Source of the DNA: a virus
DNA: 36,408 nt
Reading direction: 5' to 3' (one strand)
IMG/VR virus record: IMGVR_UViG_3300008117_000193
Coordinates: 1 to 36,408 of that record
Shown: piece by piece, positions 5 through 35,479 of the stretch
How the letters are laid out: each line of letters opens with the position of its first letter
How positions within the stretch are numbered: position 1 is the first letter of the stretch
Position numbers and translations under genes: made by a program
Notes under the pieces: generated by a model
Database searches by the model: none
What the model saw: the letters and a program-made list of their open reading frames with translations, nothing else
Told to the model about the DNA's origin: nothing

Positions 5-29
5 CAACTAGGACAACCCGTCCTAGTTG
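5..29. repeat. 23-bp palindrome family, copy 1
   Basis: Perfect inverted repeat with arms CAACTAGGAC (5-14) and GTCCTAGTTG (20-29) around the spacer AACCC. It is the first of six copies found in intergenic positions of the first 5.2 kb. The fixed five-base spacer with changing sequence fits a dimeric protein-binding site or an RNA hairpin; the sequence alone does not decide. Two GC-rich hairpins follow at once. Confidence 0.85.
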
Positions 30-37
30 AGCGTGGT

Positions 38-80
38 GCCCTGCCTTTGGGCAGGGCAGCGGGCTGCGTTCGCGCAGCCC
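38..80. terminator. Two adjacent GC-rich hairpins
   Basis: Two perfect 8-bp stems lie back to back: GCCCTGCC/GGCAGGGC (38-57, loop TTTG) and GGGCTGCG/CGCAGCCC (61-80, loop TTCG). No T-run follows, so they are not classic Rho-independent terminators on the + strand. They resemble the paired hairpins at 2426-2469 and 3078-3119 and may end or stabilise transcripts from genes left of the window. Confidence 0.55.
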
Positions 81-93
81 AGTGCGCTCGAAG

Positions 94-128
94 TTCCACA
101 TCGTGGGAAATAATTTCACATTGTGAAA
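94..128. promoter_or_regulatory. Tandem operator-like palindromes
   Basis: TTCCACATCGTGGGAA (94-109) and TTTCACATTGTGAAA (114-128) are related sequences (11 of 16 aligned bases identical) whose starts lie 20 bp apart, about two helical turns. The second is a perfect palindrome with 7-bp arms. The form resembles operators of bacterial dimeric regulators, for example IclR-type sites in Betaproteobacteria, but the regulator is unknown. Confidence 0.4.
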
Positions 129-188
129 CGTGTGGTAGTTGTCCCGCACCTAGCGTGCGTTGGGTAGCACTTCGGACGCTGCAAGTCC

Positions 189-217
189 TTGATCCGTAAA
201 GCTTTCTTATTTATTAT
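189..217 (+). promoter_or_regulatory. Candidate sigma-70 promoter
   Basis: TTGATC (189-194) and TATTAT (212-217) are separated by 17 bases, matching the -35/-10 consensus at 4 and 5 of 6 positions. The promoter lies in a conspicuously AT-rich patch inside a GC-rich genome and points toward the gene at 550, leaving a leader of about 325 bases. Confidence 0.45.
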
Positions 218-549
218 TGGATGAATGATGAATGATATGTATGTATATAGAGCTGGGAATTTTCTTTTTTGAAAATGCAAGCTGCGCCCAGCCAGGAATT
301 TCCAAAATCTTTTTCCAGTCCTGTCCTAAGAGATACACTCCTACAAAAGTAGACATCTGGCCACGAATCGGATTTCTCAATGCTGACAACGCTACTTAGC
401 GTCCAATGTTGCGTCCACTTCGTCGTGTGTCTGGGACATTCCCGGGTTTTGCTGGACGCAAACCTTACACGAAACTTACACCAACCCAACTAGGACAGCC
501 CGTCCTAGTTCAACCCCGGGGCACACGCCCCATAGAAAGGAGCTTTTCC
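218..549 (+). other. AT-rich leader without a convincing gene
   Basis: This stretch is far richer in A+T than its surroundings (clearest at 200-330), with short direct repeats (ATGAATG type) near 220-236. I see no coding sequence with a ribosome site. A perfect 9-bp inverted repeat, TTGCGTCCA (409-417) and TGGACGCAA (453-461), plus an extra direct copy of GCGTCCA at 399-405, form an iteron-like cluster. It could be an early leader or a replication origin; neither is shown. Confidence 0.4.
488..510. repeat. 23-bp palindrome family, copy 2
   Basis: Perfect arms AACTAGGAC (488-496) and GTCCTAGTT (502-510), spacer AGCCC. It lies 40 bases before the GTG start at 550, in the untranslated leader of the first gene. 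Confidence 0.85.
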
Positions 550-1167
550 GTGTACTACGAACGCTTTTTAACGAAGGCAGACTGCCCGCGCTGCGGGCAG
601 GCACGCCCGCTGCACGAATTTCGGAAGTGGTGGGGACCGAAGCGCATGCTGCGCACGCTCTGCGTACGCTGCGAGCCAGAAAAATCCCTGGAACAAATGA
701 CCCCAGAGGAGCGCATCACTGCGCTCGACCAGCAGCGTGCCTACGTCACGCCTGTCCGTGTGGCTCGCCTCAATGAGGCGGACGCCATGGCGATCCAGCA
801 GCGCCGGTCAACGGGGACGAGGCGGCGCCACGCTGCCGAGCGTGTGCGTGCGTGGTCTCCCACGCTCAAGGTCTTGAGGGCTGAGCGATTGTGGGCGCAG
901 CAGCATGCTGCGGACCCGGCGTCGCCTGCCTGGGGGCGCTTCTTCGAGGCCTACGAGGCGGCCTTGACGGACGCCTTGCGGCGTGCTGTGGCTGCGCGTG
1001 GCAACGCGTCGCGGACGCCCTCACGGATACAACCCACGCCTGATCAGGCGGACCCCATGCACTGGCTGCATGACATCACTATCAACACGCTTCGTAGGCT
1101 CTACAGCGACTGTGCCCCTGTGCGTGGTCGCAAGCTGTACCGCGATCCACTGTTCTTGGCCAACTAG
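550..1167 (+). CDS. Zinc-ribbon hypothetical protein
   Basis: This predicts a 205-residue basic protein of unknown function. The GTG start at 550 is chosen because an AAAGGAG ribosome site lies just upstream; longer in-frame extensions would run through palindrome copy 2. Two CxxC pairs near the N-terminus (CPRC and CVRC, about 24 residues apart) make a likely zinc ribbon, followed by a helical, Arg/Ala-rich body. The TAG stop lies inside palindrome copy 3. A DNA- or RNA-binding early protein is a fair guess, but no family was recognised. Confidence 0.75.
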   Translation: MYYERFLTKADCPRCGQARPLHEFRKWWGPKRMLRTLCVRCEPEKSLEQMTPEERITALDQQRAYVTPVRVARLNEADAMAIQQRRSTGTRRRHAAERVRAWSPTLKVLRAERLWAQQHAADPASPAWGRFFEAYEAALTDALRRAVAARGNASRTPSRIQPTPDQADPMHWLHDITINTLRRLYSDCAPVRGRKLYRDPLFLAN

Positions 1168-1184
1168 GACGCGGTGTCCTAGTT
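1162..1184. repeat. 23-bp palindrome family, copy 3
   Basis: Perfect arms AACTAGGAC (1162-1170) and GTCCTAGTT (1176-1184), spacer GCGGT. The TAG stop of the preceding gene (1165-1167) is part of the left arm, and the ribosome site of the next gene begins about 8 bases after the right arm. Confidence 0.85.
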
Positions 1185-1205
1185 AAACACTGAAGGAGAG
1201 AAGCA

Positions 1206-1433
1206 ATGAAGATCATCGTTGGCCACGGGGCCTATCGGGGCGCGAACGCCCTGCGCGTACACCGCACCACGCACGGTGCGGTGATGGACTTGATCCGTCG
1301 CGGCGTGGACCGCATGGTCGCCCGCAAGAAGGTGACCGAAGCGGCGGGCAACCCGTATCAGCACACGATCCTGCGCACCAAGAACGGTGCCGAGGTCATC
1401 GAAGTTGTCGCAACTACTGAAGGAGAGAAGTGA
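1206..1433 (+). CDS. Small hypothetical protein
   Basis: This is a 75-residue basic protein with a strong AAGGAGAG site 7 bases before the ATG. It has a short glycine-containing N-terminus, a central helix rich in Arg and Val, and a C-terminal strand-like segment. No family was recognised. The next gene starts just past its stop and reuses the same GAAGGAGAGAAG leader, so the two are probably co-translated. Confidence 0.7.
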   Translation: MKIIVGHGAYRGANALRVHRTTHGAVMDLIRRGVDRMVARKKVTEAAGNPYQHTILRTKNGAEVIEVVATTEGEK

Positions 1434-1434
1434 A

Positions 1435-1776
1435 ATGAAGATCAAGACAGAAGACCTCACCGGCGCCGCCCTCGATTGGGCGGTGGCGAAGTGCAGCTTC
1501 ATCGAAGGCACCGCGCGATCCCTGATCGCCGCAGATGTCAAGCCTTACTCCACCTCCTGGGCACAGGGCGGGCCGATCATCGAGCGCGAGGAGATCGGCA
1601 TCCGGCGCAATGCACCCTGTTCTACCGGTAGGGAGTGGGAAGCGTCCGGCAGCATCACTGCCAAAGGCGCAGGGTATCGGTGGGGCTACGGCCCCACGCC
1701 TCTCATCGCAGCCATGCGCTGCTTCGTGGCCAGCAAGATGGGTGACACCATCGACATCCCGGAGGAACAGTCATAA
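1435..1776 (+). CDS. NinX-like protein (DUF2591 family)
   Basis: The 113-residue product matches my memory of the DUF2591/NinX phage family along its whole length: an N-terminal segment ending ALDWAVAKC, a central WAQGGPIIERE, and a C-terminal GPTPLIAAMRCFVASKMGD. NinX-type proteins sit in the nin region of lambdoid phages; their biochemical role is not established. The ATG at 1435 follows GGAGAG at 1422; a longer in-frame start at 1387 would lie inside the previous gene and lacks a good site. Confidence 0.88.
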   Translation: MKIKTEDLTGAALDWAVAKCSFIEGTARSLIAADVKPYSTSWAQGGPIIEREEIGIRRNAPCSTGREWEASGSITAKGAGYRWGYGPTPLIAAMRCFVASKMGDTIDIPEEQS

Positions 1777-1778
1777 AC

Positions 1779-1853
1779 ATGCACCGTGACGACAAGCTGC
1801 TGCTCGCAGCATGCGCCATCATCGCAGCACTGATGCTGCTGGGTATCATTTAA
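1779..1853 (+). CDS. 24-residue membrane microprotein
   Basis: A short reading frame begins 2 bases after the NinX-like stop, with GGAGGAA about 10 bases upstream of the ATG. The predicted peptide has a charged N-terminus (HRDDK) and then 18 almost uninterrupted hydrophobic residues (Leu/Ala/Ile), ending at the C-terminus. That is the shape of a single-pass inner-membrane microprotein. No homologue is known to me; translation rests on the ribosome site and the composition. Confidence 0.55.
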   Translation: MHRDDKLLLAACAIIAALMLLGII

Positions 1854-1857
1854 TTGA

Positions 1858-1874
1858 GGGGGCATCCCGCCCCC
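1858..1874. terminator. GC-rich hairpin
   Basis: GGGGGC (1858-1863) pairs with GCCCCC (1869-1874) around ATCCC, followed by TGTTTC. It directly precedes palindrome copy 4 and probably ends the transcript of the NinX-like gene and its microprotein. Confidence 0.55.
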
Positions 1875-1880
1875 TGTTTC

Positions 1881-1903
1881 AACTAGGACATAATGTCCTA
1901 CTT
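1881..1903. repeat. 23-bp palindrome family, copy 4
   Basis: Arms AACTAGGAC (1881-1889) and GTCCTACTT (1895-1903, one mismatch), spacer ATAAT. The right arm runs into AAGGAGAGAAG, the ribosome site for the ATG at 1919. Confidence 0.8.
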
Positions 1904-1918
1904 CAAGGAGAGAAGCAA

Positions 1919-2101
1919 ATGAAGGAAGACCCCTGCACCGAGGGCCACGAGGGCTACTCGTGGTGGGAGCACGACGCCCAGGGCATACCCCTGACGCGTG
2001 TCTGCGACCGCTGCGTAGACCTGCGCCTGTCCAAGTACCGGCCCGAGATCCTGACCGGCTACACGCAAGCCGACGTTGACGAACCCATCGAGGAGATCTG
2101 A
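1919..2101 (+). CDS. Small Cys/His phage protein
   Basis: This 60-residue acidic protein has Cys and His near the N-terminus (PCTEGHEG) and a CDRC pair in the middle, a likely small zinc site, followed by a C-terminal YRPEILTGYTQADVDEPIEE that I associate with short conserved phage proteins of unknown role. The ATG at 1919 follows AAGGAGAG. The next gene begins 1 base after its stop. Confidence 0.75.
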   Translation: MKEDPCTEGHEGYSWWEHDAQGIPLTRVCDRCVDLRLSKYRPEILTGYTQADVDEPIEEI

Positions 2102-2102
2102 C

Positions 2103-2408
2103 ATGACCCGCAAGACCCAACCCATCACATCTATCGACTACGCAGGGCGCACATGCGTCTTGCGCACGGCGGGCGGCAACGGCACCACCGTCCACCAGGG
2201 CTTCGTAGCGCTGTCCCACAGGGGCGAGCGCTGGGTGATCACCGGAGGCAGGGCGCCTCACAAGGAGAGCAGCAGCGGGCGTGTCTACGCCACGCCTTAC
2301 CCGGCCAGCCCGGACGTCTCCGACGTTCACGAGTCCCAGTTCTTCCCCGGGGTCTTCGACCTCGTGTGGGTGCCCACCGAGCACAAGAAGGAGCAGGCGC
2401 ACGCCTGA
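2103..2408 (+). CDS. Hypothetical protein
   Basis: A 101-residue protein starts at the ATG at 2103, preceded by GAGGAGATCTGAC, a leader also used at 3132-3142. The N-terminal half looks like a small beta-rich fold (alternating hydrophobics, GERWVITGG); the C-terminus is charged and histidine-containing. No family was recognised. It is probably translated together with the preceding gene. Confidence 0.7.
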   Translation: MTRKTQPITSIDYAGRTCVLRTAGGNGTTVHQGFVALSHRGERWVITGGRAPHKESSSGRVYATPYPASPDVSDVHESQFFPGVFDLVWVPTEHKKEQAHA

Positions 2409-2425
2409 GATACACGCCCCTTACC

Positions 2426-2469
2426 GGGGGACGCCCGTCCCCCAACCGTCGCCGCTGCGGCCCAGCGGC
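2426..2469. terminator. Paired GC-rich hairpins
   Basis: Two stems: GGGGGAC/GTCCCCC (2426-2443, loop GCCC) and GCCGCTG/CAGCGGC (2451-2469, loop CGGCC). The pair, including the linking AACCGT, is mirrored by the pair at 3078-3119, so it looks like a repeated unit. It lies just before palindrome copy 5. Confidence 0.6.
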
Positions 2470-2475
2470 AACCTG

Positions 2476-2498
2476 TACTAGGACAACGTGTCCTACTT
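2476..2498. repeat. 23-bp palindrome family, copy 5
   Basis: Arms TACTAGGAC (2476-2484) and GTCCTACTT (2490-2498), spacer AACGT. It is the most diverged copy. The spacer and right arm contain the GTG (2488-2490) that is the best available start for the next gene. Confidence 0.75.
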
Positions 2499-3015
2499 GA
2501 GAGAGCAACGAGCATCATCCGCCCTCGGGCGGCTGCCGCAGGTGCGCAAGGCCTTCTTCACATACACCCGCGTCGTGCGTGCCCTGCCCCAGGCTGGCCC
2601 TGACGCAGCCCCCTGGCTGAGCGTCGGGGAGTACGGCGCCGAGGTGACCATGGGCATGGCCGTGCGCGACCTGCCGTCCCTCAAGGACAAGGGTCTGATG
2701 CGTGTGCTGGCTGCCTTCGCGGGAGACGAGTGGACGGCCACGTCCACGGACTACACGCACGACGTGCCGAACCGCGACTATCGGTTCCGCTGCGACATCG
2801 CCGAGCCGCTGGAGCACCTGCGCCTGACAGCCGCAGAGCAGCGCTCCCTGGCGTGGCTCAACGAGCACGCCCCGTACGAGGTGCCGAGGACTGCGACGCT
2901 GACCGTGTCCGTGTATGCGTACGTCAAGGGCGACAGCGACTCCTGCCGCATCGAGGTGACGGGCGTCGAGGAGATCGTCACCAAGCGCGAGGTCAAGAAG
3001 ATCGTGTGCGCGTAG
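2488..3015 (+). CDS. Hypothetical protein, start inside palindrome
   Basis: This predicts up to 175 residues: a basic N-terminus, then an alpha/beta body and a C-terminal strand-rich part (TLTVSVYAYVKGD). No family was recognised. No in-frame ATG is available near the front: GTG 2488 lies within palindrome copy 5 with AGGA four bases upstream, TTG 2497 follows it, and GTG 2542 is the next option. By analogy with other genes here the site GAGAGAG at 2499 ought to serve a start near 2512, but none is in frame. The body is probably real; the start is uncertain. Confidence 0.6.
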   Translation: MSYLREQRASSALGRLPQVRKAFFTYTRVVRALPQAGPDAAPWLSVGEYGAEVTMGMAVRDLPSLKDKGLMRVLAAFAGDEWTATSTDYTHDVPNRDYRFRCDIAEPLEHLRLTAAEQRSLAWLNEHAPYEVPRTATLTVSVYAYVKGDSDSCRIEVTGVEEIVTKREVKKIVCA

Positions 3016-3053
3016 CGTGTAGCGCCGAAGGCGTGTGCGCGTAGCGTGTAGCG
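3003..3053. repeat. Tandem direct repeat across a stop codon
   Basis: An exact 22-bp sequence at 3003-3024 recurs at 3032-3053, a period of 29 bp. The first copy contains the last codons and the TAG stop of the preceding gene. It looks like a recent local duplication. Confidence 0.85.
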
Positions 3054-3056
3054 GAC

Positions 3057-3119
3057 TGAAATCCGCGATTTCAATCCGGGGGAGTCTTCCCCCAACCGTG
3101 GCCCCTGCGGTCCAGGGGC
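3057..3119. terminator. Palindrome plus paired hairpins
   Basis: Three elements follow each other: TGAAATC/GATTTCA (3057-3073, loop CGC), GGGGGA/TCCCCC (3078-3093), and GCCCCTG/CAGGGGC (3101-3119, loop CGGTC). The first recurs at 4255-4279 in longer form. The last two repeat the layout at 2426-2469. They separate the gene ending at 3015 from the one starting at 3143. Confidence 0.6.
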
Positions 3120-3142
3120 ATCTTGTTTCAAGGAGATCTGAC

Positions 3143-3645
3143 ATGTTCGACATCAACACCGCAATCAACACCGCCATCGCTGCCGCTGTGGCCGAGGCCA
3201 CCAAGCCCCTCGTGGAGCGCATCGCTGCGCTGGAGACGCGCTCTTCGAGCGCACCACCGAGGTCACGATCCCCGTGGACGAGGCCAAGATGGTTGAGGCC
3301 CTCAACTCGCAAGAGTGGTTCTGGGAGAAGGTGTCCCGGTACATAACCAACTACAGCGACATCACCGTCGATGAGTTGCACAACATCAAGCAGCGGCTGG
3401 TGGAGCTTGAAGCCCACGAGGACAACGTGTACCACTACGACAAGGGGGCGGTCAAGACCTTGATCGAAGAGGCCATCGACGCCCATCTGGAGAACGCGAA
3501 CCACCTCGACGAGGACGACATCGACACCAAGATCGACAACGCCATCGACAACCACGAGGAGAACCGCACGCACGGCGACGATGACGACATCGAGGAGATC
3601 GTCCAGAAGCTGCTGAACAGCGCGAGCATCAGCATCAGCGTCTAA
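3143..3645 (+). CDS. Acidic helical protein with a frame break
   Basis: ATG 3143, behind AAGGAGATCTGAC, opens a frame that reads well to about residue 31 (VERIAALE) and then degenerates into Ser/Pro/Arg-rich nonsense ending at 3346. The minus-one frame takes over near 3238 with a natural continuation (ALFERTTEVTIPVDEAKM) and runs to 3645. One missing base near 3237-3238 would restore a protein of about 167 residues: helical, strongly acidic, with repeated IDNA/IDNH and EDDID units. I see no typical slippery heptamer, so a true indel or an assembly error is more likely than programmed frameshifting. Function unknown. Confidence 0.65.
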
Positions 3646-3667
3646 GCCGCAGACGCGGCACAACCCC

Positions 3668-3683
3668 GGGGGCTACGGCCCCC
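3668..3683. terminator. Hairpin with TACG loop
   Basis: GGGGGC and GCCCCC enclose TACG, a UNCG-class tetraloop closed by C-G, expected to be very stable in RNA; ACTTTTA follows. The 23 bases 3661-3683 are identical to 4281-4303. Confidence 0.65.
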
Positions 3684-3702
3684 ACTTTTAGGAGAGAGAA
3701 GC

Positions 3703-3894
3703 ATGAAGAAACCCGACAACATCCACGACGCGCTGCGTCAACTGAACACGCTGCTTGCCGCTGCGGGCAACGATTTGGAGCGGTATCTGGAGTCGCCCTC
3801 CGACATCGGCCCGGAATACTTTGAGTCCGTCAAGGACGCGGTACTTGATGCCCGTCTGCTCGTCACATGGATTCGCGACAACTTCATTCTGTGA
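3703..3894 (+). CDS. Small helical hypothetical protein
   Basis: This 63-residue protein has a good AGGAGAG site before the ATG. It appears to be two or three helices (a leucine-rich first helix, then YFESVKDAVLDARLLVTWIRDN). No family was recognised. The next gene begins 20 bases past its stop with its own AAAGGAG. Confidence 0.7.
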   Translation: MKKPDNIHDALRQLNTLLAAAGNDLERYLESPSDIGPEYFESVKDAVLDARLLVTWIRDNFIL

Positions 3895-3913
3895 ACCCCA
3901 AAGGAGCACCAAC

Positions 3914-4261
3914 ATGATCGACTACACCAACGCCACCACCGCACGCATCGGTCCCTGGACCGTGCGCCTCGTGTTCAAGGGCGAGCGCTACGGACGAGAC
4001 GGCGTGATGCTCAACGAGCAGACCATGCCGATGGTGGAGTTCTACGACACCGAGCAGGACAAGGCCAAGTTCGGCCCCTGGGGCCAGTTCGTCACGCGGT
4101 ACTACCTCGACACCCTGCTGGAGACCCGCCAGAAGCACCCTGGCTACGCGCTGGCCCTTGACGTGAGCGTCCCCCGCTGGACCGTGAGCGCCAGACACAT
4201 GGCGCTCGTCGAGCACTGGCTGCAGGAGCAGGGCACCTACGCCGCAGCCAAAGCAGACTGA
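3914..4261 (+). CDS. Hypothetical protein
   Basis: This 115-residue protein starts at the ATG at 3914 after AAAGGAGCACCAAC. An N-terminal beta-rich part (WTVRLVFKGERYG, MPMVEFYD) is followed by helices (TRYYLDTLLETRQKH, MALVEHWLQEQ). No family was recognised. Its TGA stop (4259-4261) lies in the left arm of a perfect 25-bp palindrome. Confidence 0.7.
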   Translation: MIDYTNATTARIGPWTVRLVFKGERYGRDGVMLNEQTMPMVEFYDTEQDKAKFGPWGQFVTRYYLDTLLETRQKHPGYALALDVSVPRWTVSARHMALVEHWLQEQGTYAAAKAD

Positions 4262-4303
4262 AATCGCGGATTTCAGTCTTCAACCCCGGGGGCTACGGCC
4301 CCC
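4255..4303. terminator. Perfect 25-bp palindrome and TACG hairpin
   Basis: AGACTGAAATC (4255-4265) and GATTTCAGTCT (4269-4279) form an 11-bp stem around GCG. A GGGGGC/GCCCCC stem with loop TACG (4288-4303) follows, then TTTCTTTT. The second stem with the T-rich tail is a reasonable Rho-independent terminator. Confidence 0.7.
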
Positions 4304-4328
4304 TTTCTTTTCACAGGAGCACGCAACC

Positions 4329-4529
4329 ATGCCCTCATGGCATCAACTCAAGGCAGGGCTTCCCAAGCTCAGCCATCCCACGAAGTGGACAAGCTACAAC
4401 CCGAGGGGGCACCTGTCGGTGATGCGCCACGCATCGCACGAGGAGTGCATCGAGTACTGCAAGCGCACGGGAGACATCCCGCTCGCCCCTGACACGCACG
4501 ATACGTCTCGCAAGACCCGCACCAACTGA
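4329..4529 (+). CDS. Small basic hypothetical protein
   Basis: This 66-residue protein is rich in His, Lys, Arg and Thr, with two cysteines (EECIEYCKRTGD). The ATG follows ACAGGAGCACGCAACC, and the same AGGAGCACGCAACC leader precedes the next gene at 4545. The shared leader suggests duplication of a gene-start cassette. No function can be assigned. Confidence 0.65.
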   Translation: MPSWHQLKAGLPKLSHPTKWTSYNPRGHLSVMRHASHEECIEYCKRTGDIPLAPDTHDTSRKTRTN

Positions 4530-4544
4530 GAGGAGCACGCAACC

Positions 4545-5162
4545 ATGCAAACGATCCACATCTCCATCATGACCGGCAAGCTCGACGGCCTACGCGCCAT
4601 CAGCACCAACACGCGCACCAACGACTACTGCATCAAGCAGAACGCGTCCGCAGATCCCAACAACATCTGCACCAAGTGCTACAGCCACACCATGCTGTCC
4701 TCGTACCGCAAGAACATGCAGCCCGCGCTCCAGCGCAACAGCGACGCGCTGTCCGCCGCGCCCCTGGCGCCCGACGCCATACCACGCATCCTCGACGCAG
4801 TCTTCCGCTTCGACGCACACGGGGAGCTGATCAACGACACGCACCTCTCCAACCTGTGCGCCATCGCCACGCGCAACCCGCGCACGTCCTTCGCCCTGTG
4901 GACCAAGCGCAACGACATCGTGTCCAAGCACTTCCGCAGCAACCCCAAACCGGTCAACCTCATCCTGATCTACAGCAACCCCAAGATCAGCAACATCATG
5001 CGCAAGCCGCCGCGCTACTTCGACCGCACGTTCAACAACGTGCTGGAGCATGAGCACGTGGAGCAGCAGAATTGCACCGGACAGAAGTGCGCCGACTGCC
5101 TGCTGTGCTACACCCCCGGTAATGGGGTGACGACCATCGTCGAGAAGGTCAAGAAATACTGA
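4545..5162 (+). CDS. Cysteine-rich phage protein, GP88-like
   Basis: This 205-residue protein has two cysteine clusters: an N-terminal C...CTKCY region and a C-terminal CTGQKCADCLLCY (C-x4-C-x2-C-x2-C), which could bind an Fe-S cluster or zinc. Between them lies a conserved-looking core, FRFDAHGELIND followed by FALWTKRNDIV and VNLILIYSNP. This arrangement recalls the cysteine-rich phage family I know as gene product 88; the match is from memory and tentative, and the biochemical role is unknown. The gene has its own leader and is followed by palindrome copy 6. Confidence 0.7.
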   Translation: MQTIHISIMTGKLDGLRAISTNTRTNDYCIKQNASADPNNICTKCYSHTMLSSYRKNMQPALQRNSDALSAAPLAPDAIPRILDAVFRFDAHGELINDTHLSNLCAIATRNPRTSFALWTKRNDIVSKHFRSNPKPVNLILIYSNPKISNIMRKPPRYFDRTFNNVLEHEHVEQQNCTGQKCADCLLCYTPGNGVTTIVEKVKKY

Positions 5163-5183
5163 GGGAACAGTCATCCCCTACGG

Positions 5184-5208
5184 CAACTAGGACACGGCGT
5201 CCTAGTTG
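5184..5208. repeat. 23-bp palindrome family, copy 6
   Basis: Perfect arms CAACTAGGAC (5184-5193) and GTCCTAGTTG (5199-5208), spacer ACGGC, followed directly by TCTTTTT. Here the palindrome plus T-run could act as a terminator for the upstream gene. It is the last copy I see in the window. Confidence 0.85.
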
Positions 5209-5230: not shown

Positions 5231-5247
5231 GCAGTGTGTTACACTGC
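5231..5247 (+). promoter_or_regulatory. Palindrome over an extended -10
   Basis: GCAGTGT and ACACTGC flank GTT in a perfect 7-bp inverted repeat. TGTTACACT (5237-5245) within it reads as an extended -10 element; no good -35 is visible. The site lies 43 bases before the DUF932-family start and could be a repressible promoter for it. Confidence 0.35.
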
Positions 5248-5289
5248 AGCCGCGCCTCGGGTTTCAGGGGCATTTTCAGGAGAAAGCAA

Positions 5290-6273
5290 ATGGCTCACAT
5301 GATCGACACCACCTCCCGCGCTACCGCTTCCTACGCCTCCACCCAGCGTGAGTGGCACGGCCTGGGGCAGCTCATGCCCGCAGGCGCGGACATCGAGACC
5401 TGGGCGCAAGCCGCAGGCATGGACTACAAGGTCCAGCGTGCGGTCATCCGCTACGCAACCGAGCGCCTGTCCAACTACGCGCCCGTGAACAACCTCAAGA
5501 CCATCGACGACAAGGTGGTCCTCTTCCGCTCGGACACCCACGCTCCCCTGGGCGTGGTCTCGGACGGCTACAAGGTCGTGCAGCCCCGTGAGGTGCTGGA
5601 CTTCTTCCGTAGCTGGGCCGAGGCAGGCGGGCTGACCATCGAGAGCGCCGGGGTTCTCTTCGGTGGCAAGCGCTACTTCGCCACGGCCAAGCTGGCCGAG
5701 GGCGTGTGCGTGGACGGCTCCAGGGACAAGCTCGTGCCCTACGCCCTGCTCAGCACCTCCGCTGATGGCTCCCTGGCCACCGAGGGGCGCTGGACGACAG
5801 TGCGCGTGGTGTGCAACAACACCTTGGGCATGGCACGCAAGGGCGCGACTGCCTTCCGCGTGACGCACCGCTCGGAGTGGAAGCCCGAGAAGTTCCAGGC
5901 CGTCATCGAGACGGCCCAGGCCGAGTTCGGCTCCTTCATGGAGACGTCGCGCAAGCTCGCCGCCATCCGGGTCGAGTCCAGGCTGGCCGAGGAGATGACC
6001 GTGGCGCTGTTCCGCAAGGAGGCGTCCGATGACGACAAGGTGCGGGAGTCCCGTGGCTTCGCCTCTGTCATGTCCCTGTTCGCAGGGGCAGGCAAGGGCG
6101 CCATGTTGGAGACGTCGCGCGGCACAGCCTGGGGGTGGCTTAACGCAGTGACGGAGCACGTGGACCATCACGTGCGTGCCCGCAACGACGAGAACCGCAC
6201 CGCCTCGGCCCTCTGGGGCCCGGGTGACGCCCTCAAGCAGCAGGCTGTGGAGATCGCTCTCGCTGCTGCATAA
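5290..6273 (+). CDS. DUF932 / phage-plasmid-like protein
   Basis: The 327-residue product belongs, by overall pattern, to the DUF932 group (phage/plasmid-like protein TIGR03299): an N-terminal WHGLGQ, then YAPVNNLKTIDDKVVLFRSDT..LGVVSDGYKVVQP, a central VRVVCNNTLGMA, and a helical C-terminal part with a WGWLNAVTEHVDHH segment. These proteins are common on phages and plasmids; their role is unproven. The ATG at 5290 is chosen for the AGGAGAAAGC site directly upstream; an in-frame extension to 5206 would read through the promoter-like region. Confidence 0.88.
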   Translation: MAHMIDTTSRATASYASTQREWHGLGQLMPAGADIETWAQAAGMDYKVQRAVIRYATERLSNYAPVNNLKTIDDKVVLFRSDTHAPLGVVSDGYKVVQPREVLDFFRSWAEAGGLTIESAGVLFGGKRYFATAKLAEGVCVDGSRDKLVPYALLSTSADGSLATEGRWTTVRVVCNNTLGMARKGATAFRVTHRSEWKPEKFQAVIETAQAEFGSFMETSRKLAAIRVESRLAEEMTVALFRKEASDDDKVRESRGFASVMSLFAGAGKGAMLETSRGTAWGWLNAVTEHVDHHVRARNDENRTASALWGPGDALKQQAVEIALAAA

Positions 6274-11097: not shown

Positions 11098-11273
11098 ACT
11101 ACCTACCCAATGATGTGGCCCGCTGCGCCGGGGCACACAAGACTGAGTGCGAAGACTGTCTGAGAAACATCAAGGTCAGCCCGCTGCACCCCGACGCATT
11201 CCGCTCTGTTTGGATTGGCCCGTGGGTGATGGATACGCCTTGTATTTCCAAGTTGACCAAGGAAAAGCAGTGA
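11094..11273 (+). CDS. Small Cys-rich protein
   Basis: The 59-residue product starts NYLPNDVARCAG and has CEDCLR, then PLHPD and a late cysteine, a likely zinc-binding arrangement (Cys, CxxC, Cys). The NYLPNDVARC...C..CLRR opening is familiar from short phage proteins of unknown role. The start is in the GGAAGGAACATGCCATGAAC junction. Confidence 0.7.
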   Translation: MNYLPNDVARCAGAHKTECEDCLRNIKVSPLHPDAFRSVWIGPWVMDTPCISKLTKEKQ

Positions 11274-11503
11274 AGCTGACGCCTTGGTTTTCGATGGATG
11301 TTGCCCCCATTTACCCTGGTGTTTACATGGTCGATCAAAGCTGGCCCGATCAAGAAACAGAGGCTGTCTACGCCTACTGGGATTGCGTCAATTGGTATCC
11401 ACAAGGATCAACACCCAAGGATGCGATGTACACAATGTGTTATGGCCCAACAAAAGGCAGGCCGTTTAAGCAATGGCGCGGACTTGCGGAGGAGCCAAAA
11501 TGA
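11270..11503 (+). CDS. Small phage protein with WRGLA end
   Basis: The 77-residue product starts with GTG overlapping the previous TGA; AAGGAAAAGCA is its ribosome site. It has a compact beta-type pattern, PIYPGVYMVDQSW ... AYWDCVNWYPQGSTPKDA ... QWRGLAEEP, that I recognise from a widespread family of small phage proteins (P-x-R/Y-PGVY at the front, WRGLA at the end). Function unknown. Confidence 0.75.
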   Translation: MKLTPWFSMDVAPIYPGVYMVDQSWPDQETEAVYAYWDCVNWYPQGSTPKDAMYTMCYGPTKGRPFKQWRGLAEEPK

Positions 11504-11646
11504 ACGAACCCATGCACCCCTCGGGCCTGACGCTTGCTCGCTGGCTGTGGCCTTTCAAGACGGACGAGGAGCGCGTCCTCGTCGCCCGGTGGTTCGCCAA
11601 GCAGGCCCGCGCCGAGCGGGGCCAGGGTGAGGAGGCGCTCTTCTGA
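11500..11646 (+). CDS. 48-residue hypothetical protein
   Basis: The frame overlaps the previous stop by 4 bases and the next start by 1 base (TGATG). The product has a Trp-containing N-terminal helix and a charged C-terminal helix (EERVLVARWFAKQARAERGQGEE). GGAGGAGCC precedes the ATG. No family was recognised. Confidence 0.6.
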   Translation: MNEPMHPSGLTLARWLWPFKTDEERVLVARWFAKQARAERGQGEEALF

Positions 11647-18383: not shown

Positions 18384-19400
18384 GTGAGCAATGTTGCACT
18401 TTTCTCCCCCTCCAACGTCCCTGCATTCGCCAAGAAGCAGGAACTGTCGGCACTGGCCAAGTCGCTTGCGGGCGGCGGCGCTGGTGGCGGCAAGCGCGTG
18501 TCCATCAAGGGCGGCGTGTTCCGTCTGCTGGTGGACGGCAAGGAGATCGCGGCCATCGAGGAGCGCTACCTCGACGTCGTGCTGGTGAACGCCGCACCCA
18601 AGATCGGGCGCACGTTCTACATGAAGCAGTACGACGGCGACACGCCGAGCGCCCCGGACTGCTGGAGCGCCGACGGCGAGAAGCCCGATGCGACCGCAGC
18701 GAACCCGCAGGCGTCGAACTGCGCAAGCTGCCCGCAGAACGCCAAGGGCTCGGGGCAAGGCGACAGCCGCGCCTGCCGGTTCAGCCAGCGTCTGGCGGTG
18801 GTGCTGGCCAACGACATCGAGGGCGATGTGCTGATGCTGCAGGCCCCTGCGGCGTCGATCTTCGGCAAGGCCGAGGGCGAGAACATGCCGCTCCAGGCAT
18901 ACGCCCGGTTCCTGGCCGCGCAGAGCGTGTCCCCCGAGACGGTGGTCACGCGGATGAAGTTCGACACCAAGGCCGAGTCGCCCAAGCTGTTCTTCAAGGC
19001 CATGCGCTGGCTCACCGAGGAGGAGTACGCCATCGCTGTGGAGAAGGGCCAGAGCCCCGAGGCCAAGCAGGCGATCACGATGACCGTGGCGCAGATGGAC
19101 AAGGTGCCCGCGCCGATGGCGCTGGAGGGCGCGCCGCCCAAGGCGGCGATGAAGCCCGCACCGACCCCTGCACCGGCACCTGAGCCCGCGCCTGCTCCCG
19201 CTGCTGTCGATGATGACGAGGCACCGCCGCCTGCTCCGCGCCGTGGCCGTCCGCCCAAGGCGGTTGCGGAAGCCCGCAAGGCCGCAGAAGCCGCCGCAGA
19301 GGAGCCGCCCGAGCCGGTCGTCCAGCGCACGCCTGTCCCGCCCCGCCCCGCGATGCCGACGCAGCTTGCCAAGCTCGCGGAAGATTGGGATGATGAGTGA
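18384..19400 (+). CDS. Candidate ssDNA-binding protein with AT-hook
   Basis: This 338-residue protein has a folded N-terminal region (about 1-245), including a C4 arrangement (C93, C113-x2-C116, C131) that could hold zinc, then a long Pro/Ala linker, an AT-hook-like PRRGRPPK (285-292, core R287-G-R-P290) and an acidic C-terminal end (EDWDDE). A flexible linker with an acidic tail is the hallmark of phage ssDNA-binding proteins such as T7 gp2.5 and gp32; the AT-hook is unusual. The GTG at 18384 follows AAGGAG. Identification is by architecture and context, not sequence identity. Confidence 0.62.
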   Translation: MSNVALFSPSNVPAFAKKQELSALAKSLAGGGAGGGKRVSIKGGVFRLLVDGKEIAAIEERYLDVVLVNAAPKIGRTFYMKQYDGDTPSAPDCWSADGEKPDATAANPQASNCASCPQNAKGSGQGDSRACRFSQRLAVVLANDIEGDVLMLQAPAASIFGKAEGENMPLQAYARFLAAQSVSPETVVTRMKFDTKAESPKLFFKAMRWLTEEEYAIAVEKGQSPEAKQAITMTVAQMDKVPAPMALEGAPPKAAMKPAPTPAPAPEPAPAPAAVDDDEAPPPAPRRGRPPKAVAEARKAAEAAAEEPPEPVVQRTPVPPRPAMPTQLAKLAEDWDDE

Positions 19401-19406
19401 GTAACT

Positions 19407-19427
19407 GGGGGCGGCAATGCCGCCCCC
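19407..19427 (+). terminator. GC-rich hairpin after the ssDNA-binding gene
   Basis: GGGGGCGGC and GCCGCCCCC form a perfect 9-bp stem with loop AAT, followed by TTCGCAAT. It lies 6 bases after the preceding stop and just before the HTH gene. It may be a weak terminator or attenuator, as only two T residues follow. Confidence 0.65.
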
Positions 19428-19435
19428 TTCGCAAT

Positions 19436-19714
19436 ATGCCGTACTCAATCGACACCATCCACCGCATCAGGAAAGGACCGCGCAACCTGGGCAACACGCT
19501 CGGGCGCATCGCGGTCGATCTTGATTTCTCCGTTCAGCGTATCGCGAAGGCCACCAACGCTACGCGTCAGACCGTCTACAACTGGATGTCTGGTGGCGAA
19601 GTGATGGGCGCCTACCGCCCGGTCGTTGAGCGCTTGATCAATATACTGCAGCAAGCACAGACTGCAGACAAAGCATGGGAAGCAGCATGTCAGGAATTCA
19701 ACCTTCGAGCTTGA
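19436..19714 (+). CDS. Helix-turn-helix protein
   Basis: The 92-residue product contains a helix-turn-helix: LDFSVQRIAKATNATRQTVYNWMSGGEVMGAYRPVVERLINIL, like a Cro/XRE-type DNA-binding core. The ATG at 19436 has no good ribosome site; the strong hairpin before it could hide or expose initiation. A GTG at 19397 in the same frame is an alternative. Located between the ssDNA-binding candidate and the primase, it could regulate the module. Confidence 0.7.
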   Translation: MPYSIDTIHRIRKGPRNLGNTLGRIAVDLDFSVQRIAKATNATRQTVYNWMSGGEVMGAYRPVVERLINILQQAQTADKAWEAACQEFNLRA

Positions 19715-34525: not shown

Positions 34526-35479
34526 TCACGCTCCAAACTGGTAGTCCATCAGGGGGCCGTATCGTCCTGCAGTCATCTGTGAGGACCACTCGGGCTGCTT
34601 GGGTTCTTGCGCTGCCTGTTCTATCGCTGCCAGGACAGAGGGTTCTTGCGCTGCCTGTTCTATCGCTGCCAGGACAGAGTAGGTGTCTGCGTTGATACCT
34701 GCATCGCCGTAGGTGTTGCCTGTGGGGGCCGACGAAGTGGAGGGTACACCTGCCCCGCCAAACAGTCCACCCAGGCCACCAGACTTCGTCCCACCTACAG
34801 CTTCTGACGCTGCCCTGCCGACTGCGGGGCCAAGCGTTGAGCTTGCCAAAGCACCAGCAAATGGACTGCCCGTGAGGCCACCTACGAGAGCGCCAAGCCC
34901 TGCTTGCGCACCGGAGCCTACGGCTTTGCCAAGATCGTTAGTGAGGATGCCTTCGACGATACCTGAAGGAATCCCAGTCCTCGCACCAATCAATCCCGCA
35001 GCCAGCCCCGGCACGACGTCCTTAGCGGACAGCTGGCCAGTCATCAGGCCGTGGATGCCCGCGATGCCTTTGCCGATATTGGACACCATGCCGTAGCCAG
35101 GGACCAGACTGGCGAGCGCGGGAGCGGCATAGTTGAGGACGTTGTGGACGTTCTGTGCAGCAAGAGCTTGCTCTATGTTTTGGGTGAAGCCTGGGATGTC
35201 CATCTTCCCGAAGCCCGCATCCTGCAACCCCGCCAACGTGCCGTAGCCGACCCCTGGCGAATGAAAGCCCCTACCTGTTGCAGCGCCCTCGCCAAGAGGC
35301 GCGCCCAACATGTCCGCAATTGCTTGCGCTACGTCTTTGGAGTACGCGCCCGCAGACAGCCCAGACGCTTCGTCTGAGTAATTGGAAAAGTCAAAACTAC
35401 TGTTGTAGTCAGCAGTGCTTGGACCGCCACCGCCGCCCGCATCCGCAGGTCCGTCGCTAGTTCCGCCGCCACCTTCCAT
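34526..35479 (-). CDS. Glycine-rich virion-type protein with duplication
   Basis: The 317-residue product has an acidic, Gly/Ser-rich N-terminus, then a long hydrophobic Gly/Ala region (YAAPALASLVPGYGMVSNIGKGIAG ... GLAAGLIGARTG ... GALVGGLTGSPFAG) with the look of a membrane-interacting internal protein, and a C-terminal tandem repeat of SVLAAIEQAAQEP, encoded by an exact 39-bp DNA duplication (34601-34678). GAGG precedes the ATG. Function unknown, probably an ejected or tail protein. Confidence 0.7.
   Translation of the reverse strand: MEGGGGTSDGPADAGGGGGPSTADYNSSFDFSNYSDEASGLSAGAYSKDVAQAIADMLGAPLGEGAATGRGFHSPGVGYGTLAGLQDAGFGKMDIPGFTQNIEQALAAQNVHNVLNYAAPALASLVPGYGMVSNIGKGIAGIHGLMTGQLSAKDVVPGLAAGLIGARTGIPSGIVEGILTNDLGKAVGSGAQAGLGALVGGLTGSPFAGALASSTLGPAVGRAASEAVGGTKSGGLGGLFGGAGVPSTSSAPTGNTYGDAGINADTYSVLAAIEQAAQEPSVLAAIEQAAQEPKQPEWSSQMTAGRYGPLMDYQFGA
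34601..34678. repeat. Exact 39-bp tandem duplication
   Basis: Bases 34601-34639 are repeated exactly at 34640-34678, giving two identical 13-residue units in the encoded protein. With no substitution between the copies, the duplication is either very recent or an assembly artefact. Confidence 0.92.

Follow-up and report, generated by a model that had tools for sequence, protein, structure and literature searches.

A lineage-specific palindrome array in phage early regions and the first gene that follows its site class

The virus record IMGVR_UViG_3300008117_000193 of IMG/VR, whose whole stretch of 36,408 bases is called the window here, carries six copies of one palindrome among its early genes, and the question raised by this locus is what reads such a set of sites, and in what form. 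The core, TAGGAC-N5-GTCCTA, occurs exactly six times in the window and is invariant in all six copies; the full site is AACTAGGAC-N5-GTCCTAGTT, and every copy lies at a gene boundary (Table 1). The arms are perfect in copies 1, 2, 3 and 6, copy 4 has one mismatch and copy 5 has two, and these mismatches all fall within the outer three bases. The spacers are all different (AACCC, AGCCC, GCGGT, ATAAT, AACGT and ACGGC in copies 1 to 6), and in the window and its same-class relatives their first base is always a purine and their last always a pyrimidine, mostly A...T. An earlier note on this DNA had placed six copies at gene boundaries, with nearly constant arms and a spacer that differs in each copy, and had seen none after 5.2 kb. 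All of this was borne out, the coordinates being exact and the core being found nowhere else in the 36.4-kb window. The count in shuffled sequence that the note had proposed as a check gave zero occurrences of the core in dinucleotide shuffles of the window, so that the array is not due to chance, and a reversed control pattern was likewise absent from the window. A ribosome site or start codon beside copies 3 to 5, also claimed in the note, is present at copies 3 and 4; an ATG follows copy 5 in relatives, and the start codon in the window is uncertain there.

Alignment of DUF932 proteins gathered 77 related loci, 78 loci were examined for arrays, and the homologous early regions of the relatives were searched de novo for repeated palindromes. 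A single palindrome with six-base arms and fixed spacing was present in three or more exact copies in 57 of the 78 loci, whereas a mirror-repeat control gave 2 of 78. In most related loci the palindrome has the same early location as in the window but a different sequence. Altogether, there are more than a dozen site classes, which are dyads of 16-23 bp that stand 3-12 times in each genome at the boundaries of early genes, and most of which follow the loose theme xxGGRSA-N2/3-TSYCCxx. Besides the TAGGAC-N5 class of the window, they include GGGGAC-N5 (G002), GAGGAC-N5 (G016), GGGGAG-N5 (G004), GGGGAC-N4 (G005), GGGGAG-N4 (G003), GGGAAG-N4 (G018), GTGTCA-N3 (G006), GGGTCA-N3, TTGCGACA-N2 and others. 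The other genome parts of the relatives G002 to G006, G016 and G018 hold no comparable palindrome set. The nearest near-complete relative (G001; 66,481 bp with a terminal repeat) has nine copies in one early stretch of about 6.7 kb that spans the ends of the record and none elsewhere, and its terminase, portal and major head proteins are encoded on the other strand. The earlier note had proposed absence of the motif from related phages as a test against the array. Taken literally, this comparison would have misled, because the sequence of the window is indeed missing from most relatives but a different palindrome occupies the same place in them. No array was found in the distant DUF932 loci L166, L168 and L172, and no comparable array in the partial records of the named phages DSL-LC04, Rollin and KPP25. 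In the cultured, distantly related Rhizobium phage RHph_TM3_14A (L188, record 11000-60889), TTACC-N6-GGTAA occurs in 22 copies over 45 kb, partly between and partly inside genes, possibly as an independent dispersed operator set.

Near-identical phages may differ in site class, the palindromes being swapped within flanking DNA that is about 95% identical or more. The site positions of G003 and G018 are the same and their flanks are conserved, but their palindromes are different. Similarly, L134 and L170 (GGGTCA-N3-TGACCC) are nearly identical to L142 (TTGCGACA-N2-TGTCGCAA) across the gene for a zinc-ribbon protein and its long leader, and yet the palindromes differ on both sides of this region. 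Such conservation of the flanks around differing palindromes indicates that the sites change as sites, and not as parts of large blocks. In addition, two or three site types coexist within one array in six loci (L118, L120, L124, L127, L139 and L179). In these mixed arrays, the sites close to the array's first gene tend to match that gene and remnants of other classes lie farther off, but the rule is not strict, as site 1 of L179 is degenerate. The mixed arrays are apparently intermediates of class change. This suggests that the regulator cassette is replaced first, and that the distant sites are converted more slowly.

The first gene of the array follows the site class, and it therefore probably encodes the protein that reads the sites. 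L142 and L170, which differ in site class, have DUF932 proteins that are 96% identical and zinc-ribbon proteins that are 98% identical, whereas their first-gene proteins show 21% identity over the whole length and 8% over the first 90 amino acids. Conversely, the first gene is 99-100% identical in all five loci of the GGGTCA class, which have two zinc-ribbon types; no protein of the TTGCGACA loci matches it, their first gene being a different one. L173 combines a zinc-ribbon protein like that of G003 with the first gene and the sites of the GGGAAG class. When L170 was compared with nine relatives, open reading frame (ORF) by ORF, the class-following pattern was seen only in the first gene, in a short downstream ORF (11232-11495) that is not present in every array, and in a short opposite-strand ORF beside site 1. 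In a comparison of same-class with different-class pairs (50 loci, close pairs whose DUF932 proteins are at least 75 to 88% identical), the first gene gave an area under the curve of 0.97-0.98, compared with 0.57-0.72 for the zinc-ribbon protein and 0.59-0.77 for DUF932. Shuffling of the class labels among 38 representatives reached the observed value in none of 10,000 trials; since shuffling ignores phylogeny, it is the close-pair comparison that carries the weight.

Other candidates fared less well. The zinc-ribbon protein was the first to be considered, since it is common to the main-group arrays and shows 27-55% identity between G001 and genomes of other classes. It was rejected as the binder and determinant of specificity because 98% identical versions accompany GGGTCA and TTGCGACA sites, and two zinc-ribbon types occur within each of these two classes. 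This protein is the fastest-evolving of the shared proteins, far faster than its neighbours, though it is found in every main-group array. The earlier note had pointed to two helix-turn-helix proteins as possible binders. The one at 19436 (19397-19714) was discarded, because its putative recognition helix, RQTVYNW, is identical across phages with different palindromes, and the protein at 11646 has no family match.

The first gene itself lies outside the window. Two contigs, L018 and L031, overlap the window at positions 1-120 and 1-114, where they are 100% identical to it, and the first gene is found upstream in both (L018 2583-3041, where window base 1 corresponds to L018 3917; the gene is at 62719-63165 in G001), and it is therefore expected about 0.9-1.3 kb upstream of window base 1. 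Its protein of about 130-160 amino acids has no family match in Pfam or PHROG, and tblastn with three such proteins against 50,697 phage records gave no credible match. Iterated profile searches from five very different first genes nevertheless converged on one superfamily, which is present in nearly all arrays. The model for the TAGGAC class has three helices, a beta hairpin, a fourth helix, a flexible linker and two further helices (predicted local distance difference test score 79.8), and the model for a second subfamily is all-helical. One subfamily, with the motif SRxDRS...YH, is paired with GGGGAG, GGGAAG and GAGAGA sites; another, with the motif VLD...Y.AA, is paired with most of the remaining sites, notably those ending in GAC. 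G001 and G007-type phages have the same sites but differ in the C-terminal part of the protein, and the specificity therefore probably resides in the N-terminal part. Around the first gene, further repeats were observed. TGTCAA-N4-TTGACA occurs three times in exact 40-bp steps ahead of the first gene in G002 (L071 7846, 7886 and 7926), where G001 has a pair of TTGACA repeats spaced about 40 bp. Downstream of the first gene, five loci of the GGGAAG class (L141, L144, L146, L147 and L149) have an extra dyad, TGGGTAGCTACCCA and variants, three times per locus.

In our view, the dyads are likely to be operators read by the first-gene protein, a small, early, DNA-binding and self-regulating protein, which most likely lowers early transcription. 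A phage-specific operator set that coordinates the early genes, as proposed in the earlier note, thus appears to be the best-supported reading, each lineage having its own palindrome. From the patterns in the sequence we infer that the protein binds the sites, that it does so as a dimer, that the target is DNA rather than RNA, and that the outcome is repression. The protein would carry its specificity in an N-terminal domain, followed by a helical C-terminal domain that can be exchanged. The first site to be bound would be the one in the leader of its own gene, for autoregulation, followed by 3 to 12 sites in other early leaders, where RNA polymerase would be blocked in the manner of stoperators; the early genes of the phage itself, or of a co-infecting phage of the same class, would thereby be damped. 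In G001, an extended -10 element (TGGTAAAAT, read by eye) is found about 75 nt upstream of site 1, which would therefore sit inside the leader of the first gene, and the window has a single plausible promoter, located between copies 1 and 2. The location of sites in transcribed leaders and between genes suggests a roadblock to elongation, as at stoperators, rather than a block of initiation (PMC9283540).

Several observations weigh against an operator function for the sites. Sites 1 and 2 flank the first gene, and physical linkage alone could explain the agreement of both with it; the argument therefore rests on the distant sites. Some sites in mixed arrays do not match the resident protein. 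Fold searches of the two models against the PDB gave no significant match and no known DNA-binding family, the weak matches of the TAGGAC-class model (E of 1 or more) including many winged-helix proteins, such as MexR, PecS and the replication terminator protein. Moreover, among the 308 exact sites there are 95 whose end lies 15-24 nt ahead of an ATG with a ribosome-site-like sequence in front of it, an arrangement that suits translational control, and the outer bases of the GAGGAC and GGGGAC classes pair above the expectation under independence, as could happen with an RNA hairpin or with mixed subclasses. The last two points, together with the fact that site 1 mostly lies directly beside the first gene's ribosome site, speak for RNA hairpins in mRNA leaders, through which an autoregulated first-gene protein would control translation or RNA processing, like the translational repressors of T4 and the RNA phages. 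We nevertheless consider this unlikely. Single arm mismatches show no preference for G-U (29) over A-C (23); in the outer positions, the frequency of A-C pairs roughly equals or exceeds the expectation and is higher than that of G-U pairs, which are not enriched near the arms. Every arm variant of the TAGGAC class breaks the pairing and none compensates for it. For about half of the sites there is no start codon nearby. Lastly, the centre is free to vary, yet an A...T around it is conserved in the classes with a two-base centre, which no hairpin requires, and the N4 centre of the GGGGAG class is mostly A/T. Such centres would be expected from indirect readout by a DNA-binding dimer, and the half-site centres are 9-10 bp apart, about one helical turn. 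Of the two possibilities left side by side in the earlier note, a dimeric site and an RNA hairpin, the former is thus favoured as a site on DNA and the latter is weakened. The lambdoid N/boxB system is similar in that a phage-specific palindrome stands just upstream of the first gene of the early operon, but boxB acts as RNA and its loop is conserved, whereas the present palindromes combine constant arms with a variable centre.

The palindromes could also mark recombination boundaries, as mobile punctuation that aids the shuffling of early genes, like the promoter/stem-loop cassettes (PeSLs) of T4-type phages, which are mobile and repeated between small, variable early genes. Indeed, the present elements resemble stem-loops repeated between such genes, gene content shifts right after copies 3-5 in the window, G001 and G008, and mosaic arrays exist. 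This explanation has little to recommend it overall, because it does not account for distant sites that switch class with one gene between identical flanks. Furthermore, unlike PeSLs, the copies are not accompanied by an early promoter (two promoter-like sequences in 6 kb against 0.9 expected, neither at a palindrome copy), and their arm sequence is tied to one gene. Slightly less probable still are marks that take no direct part in early expression and serve DNA organisation or partition of the ParB/parS type, replication or packaging. The clustering of the dyads around the gene of their presumed binder would fit such marks, as would the weak winged-helix-like matches, the replication terminator protein among them, but the sites track gene starts and ribosome sites instead of forming a compact cluster, and a ParA-type ATPase was not found in 14 records. 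That the copies are intrinsic terminators at gene ends is hardly credible: copy 6 is followed by a T run and was listed as terminator-like, but such a run is missing after each of the other five, most of which stand before ribosome sites, and one shared arm sequence per lineage is not expected of terminators.

The operator reading invites comparison with two known systems. In cluster A mycobacteriophages (L5, Bxb1, TipsytheTRex), which are temperate, the stoperator motif and the repressor diverge together; the stoperator is a 13-bp asymmetric site in one orientation, bound by a monomer and present in more than 20 copies genome-wide (PMC6550527, PMC9283540). The arrays described here are similar in that one short site recurs at many scattered positions, frequently in small gaps between genes, and in that a single regulator has a predicted autoregulatory site and diverges together with the motif. 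In contrast, the present sites are symmetric dyads that number 3-12 per genome and do not occur outside the early region, their class changes are discrete swaps to different sequences, the first-gene protein is unrelated to L5 Rep by every search, and no integrase was found. In the Bacillus prophage SPbeta, the master regulator MrpR, which has a tyrosine-recombinase fold, acts at the repeated 15-bp element SPBRE of several phage genes (PMC10516654). Binding of a regulator to an element repeated at several phage genes is likewise predicted here, but the first-gene model is small and mostly helical, PF00589 has no match in 15 records, and the portion of the published account used here describes no lineage-specific switching for MrpR/SPBRE (PMC10516654). 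The system would thus work like cluster A stoperators and like SPBRE/MrpR, but it is a member of neither, because site symmetry, protein family and lifestyle differ.

In a set of 14-15 near-complete or large records, searches for tyrosine and serine integrases (PF00589, PF00239) and for ParA (PF13614) were all negative, and the 84,980 bacterial and archaeal genomes searched yielded no DUF932 relative. These negatives are absence of evidence only, and they make an explanation by lysogeny less natural. A more tentative idea, which we regard as possible rather than probable, is that these non-lysogenic-looking phages maintain an immunity-like regulator/operator system with a fast turnover of specificity. 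The cassette and its two flanking sites would be replaced together and the distant operators converted one by one, driven by competition among co-infecting relatives and not by lysogeny. The question raised is why phages without a visible integrase retain an immunity-like specificity system. With regard to hosts, a 3.4-kb contig in a Gammaproteobacteria metagenome-assembled genome (L185, RGWK01000262.1) encodes a 68% identical DUF927 protein, a hint too weak to assign a host.

Within one group of uncultured phages, a single regulator family thus comes with over a dozen site classes, with swaps that occurred naturally and with mixed intermediates, and so forms a large natural record of joint change in regulator and sites. 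This makes the concerted change of a regulator's specificity and of all its genomic sites testable with small proteins and short DNA. The first-gene protein is a DNA-binding candidate outside the known families, and pairs of first genes and sites could supply a set of orthogonal repressors.

Table 1. Palindrome copies and other early features of the window.
Feature	Position	Strand	Remarks
Copy 1	6..28	.	AACTAGGAC-AACCC-GTCCTAGTT
Sigma-70-like promoter candidate, TTGATC-N17-TATTAT	189..217	+	Between copies 1 and 2; consensus match only
Copy 2	488..510	.	Upstream of zinc-ribbon gene (GTG 550)
Zinc-ribbon protein (C-x2-C...C-x2-C), 205 amino acids	550..1167	+	Within array, between copies 2 and 3
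Copy 3	1162..1184	.	Includes zinc-ribbon stop codon (TAG 1165-1167); then ribosome site and ATG 1206
NinX-like early gene	1435..1776	+	Within array region; PF10765, E 5e-18
Copy 4	1881..1903	.	Right outer arm altered (CTT); then ribosome site and ATG 1920
Copy 5	2476..2498	.	Both outer arms altered (TAC...CTT); before ORF 2488-3015
GP88-like early gene	4545..5162	+	Just upstream of copy 6; PF17338, E 5e-6
Copy 6	5185..5207	.	Upstream of DUF932 gene; sole copy with a T run after it
DUF932 protein, conserved marker gene	5290..6273	+	Just downstream of copy 6

The proteins encoded in the window include a family A DNA polymerase, an SNF2-type helicase, a DUF927 primase/helicase-like protein and DUF932. 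Several other repeats lie among the early genes. The long leader of the zinc-ribbon gene contains two neighbouring dyads, GTTCCACATCGTGGGAA and TTTCACATTGTGAAA, at 91-128, and it is AT-rich and almost invariant at 180-260 (about 3860-3970 in L134), where it is a candidate for the main early promoter or a replication origin. Near-identical inverted repeats, GACTGAAATCCGCGATTTCAATC and GACTGAAATCGCGGATTTCAGTC, are located between early genes at 3054-3076 and 4256-4278. A second dyad, GCAGTGTGTTACACTGC, lies at 5231-5248 between copy 6 and the DUF932 gene, and G002 keeps GCAGTGTGCTACACTGC. Far downstream, positions 34601-34678 of the window form a perfect tandem duplication of 39 bp.

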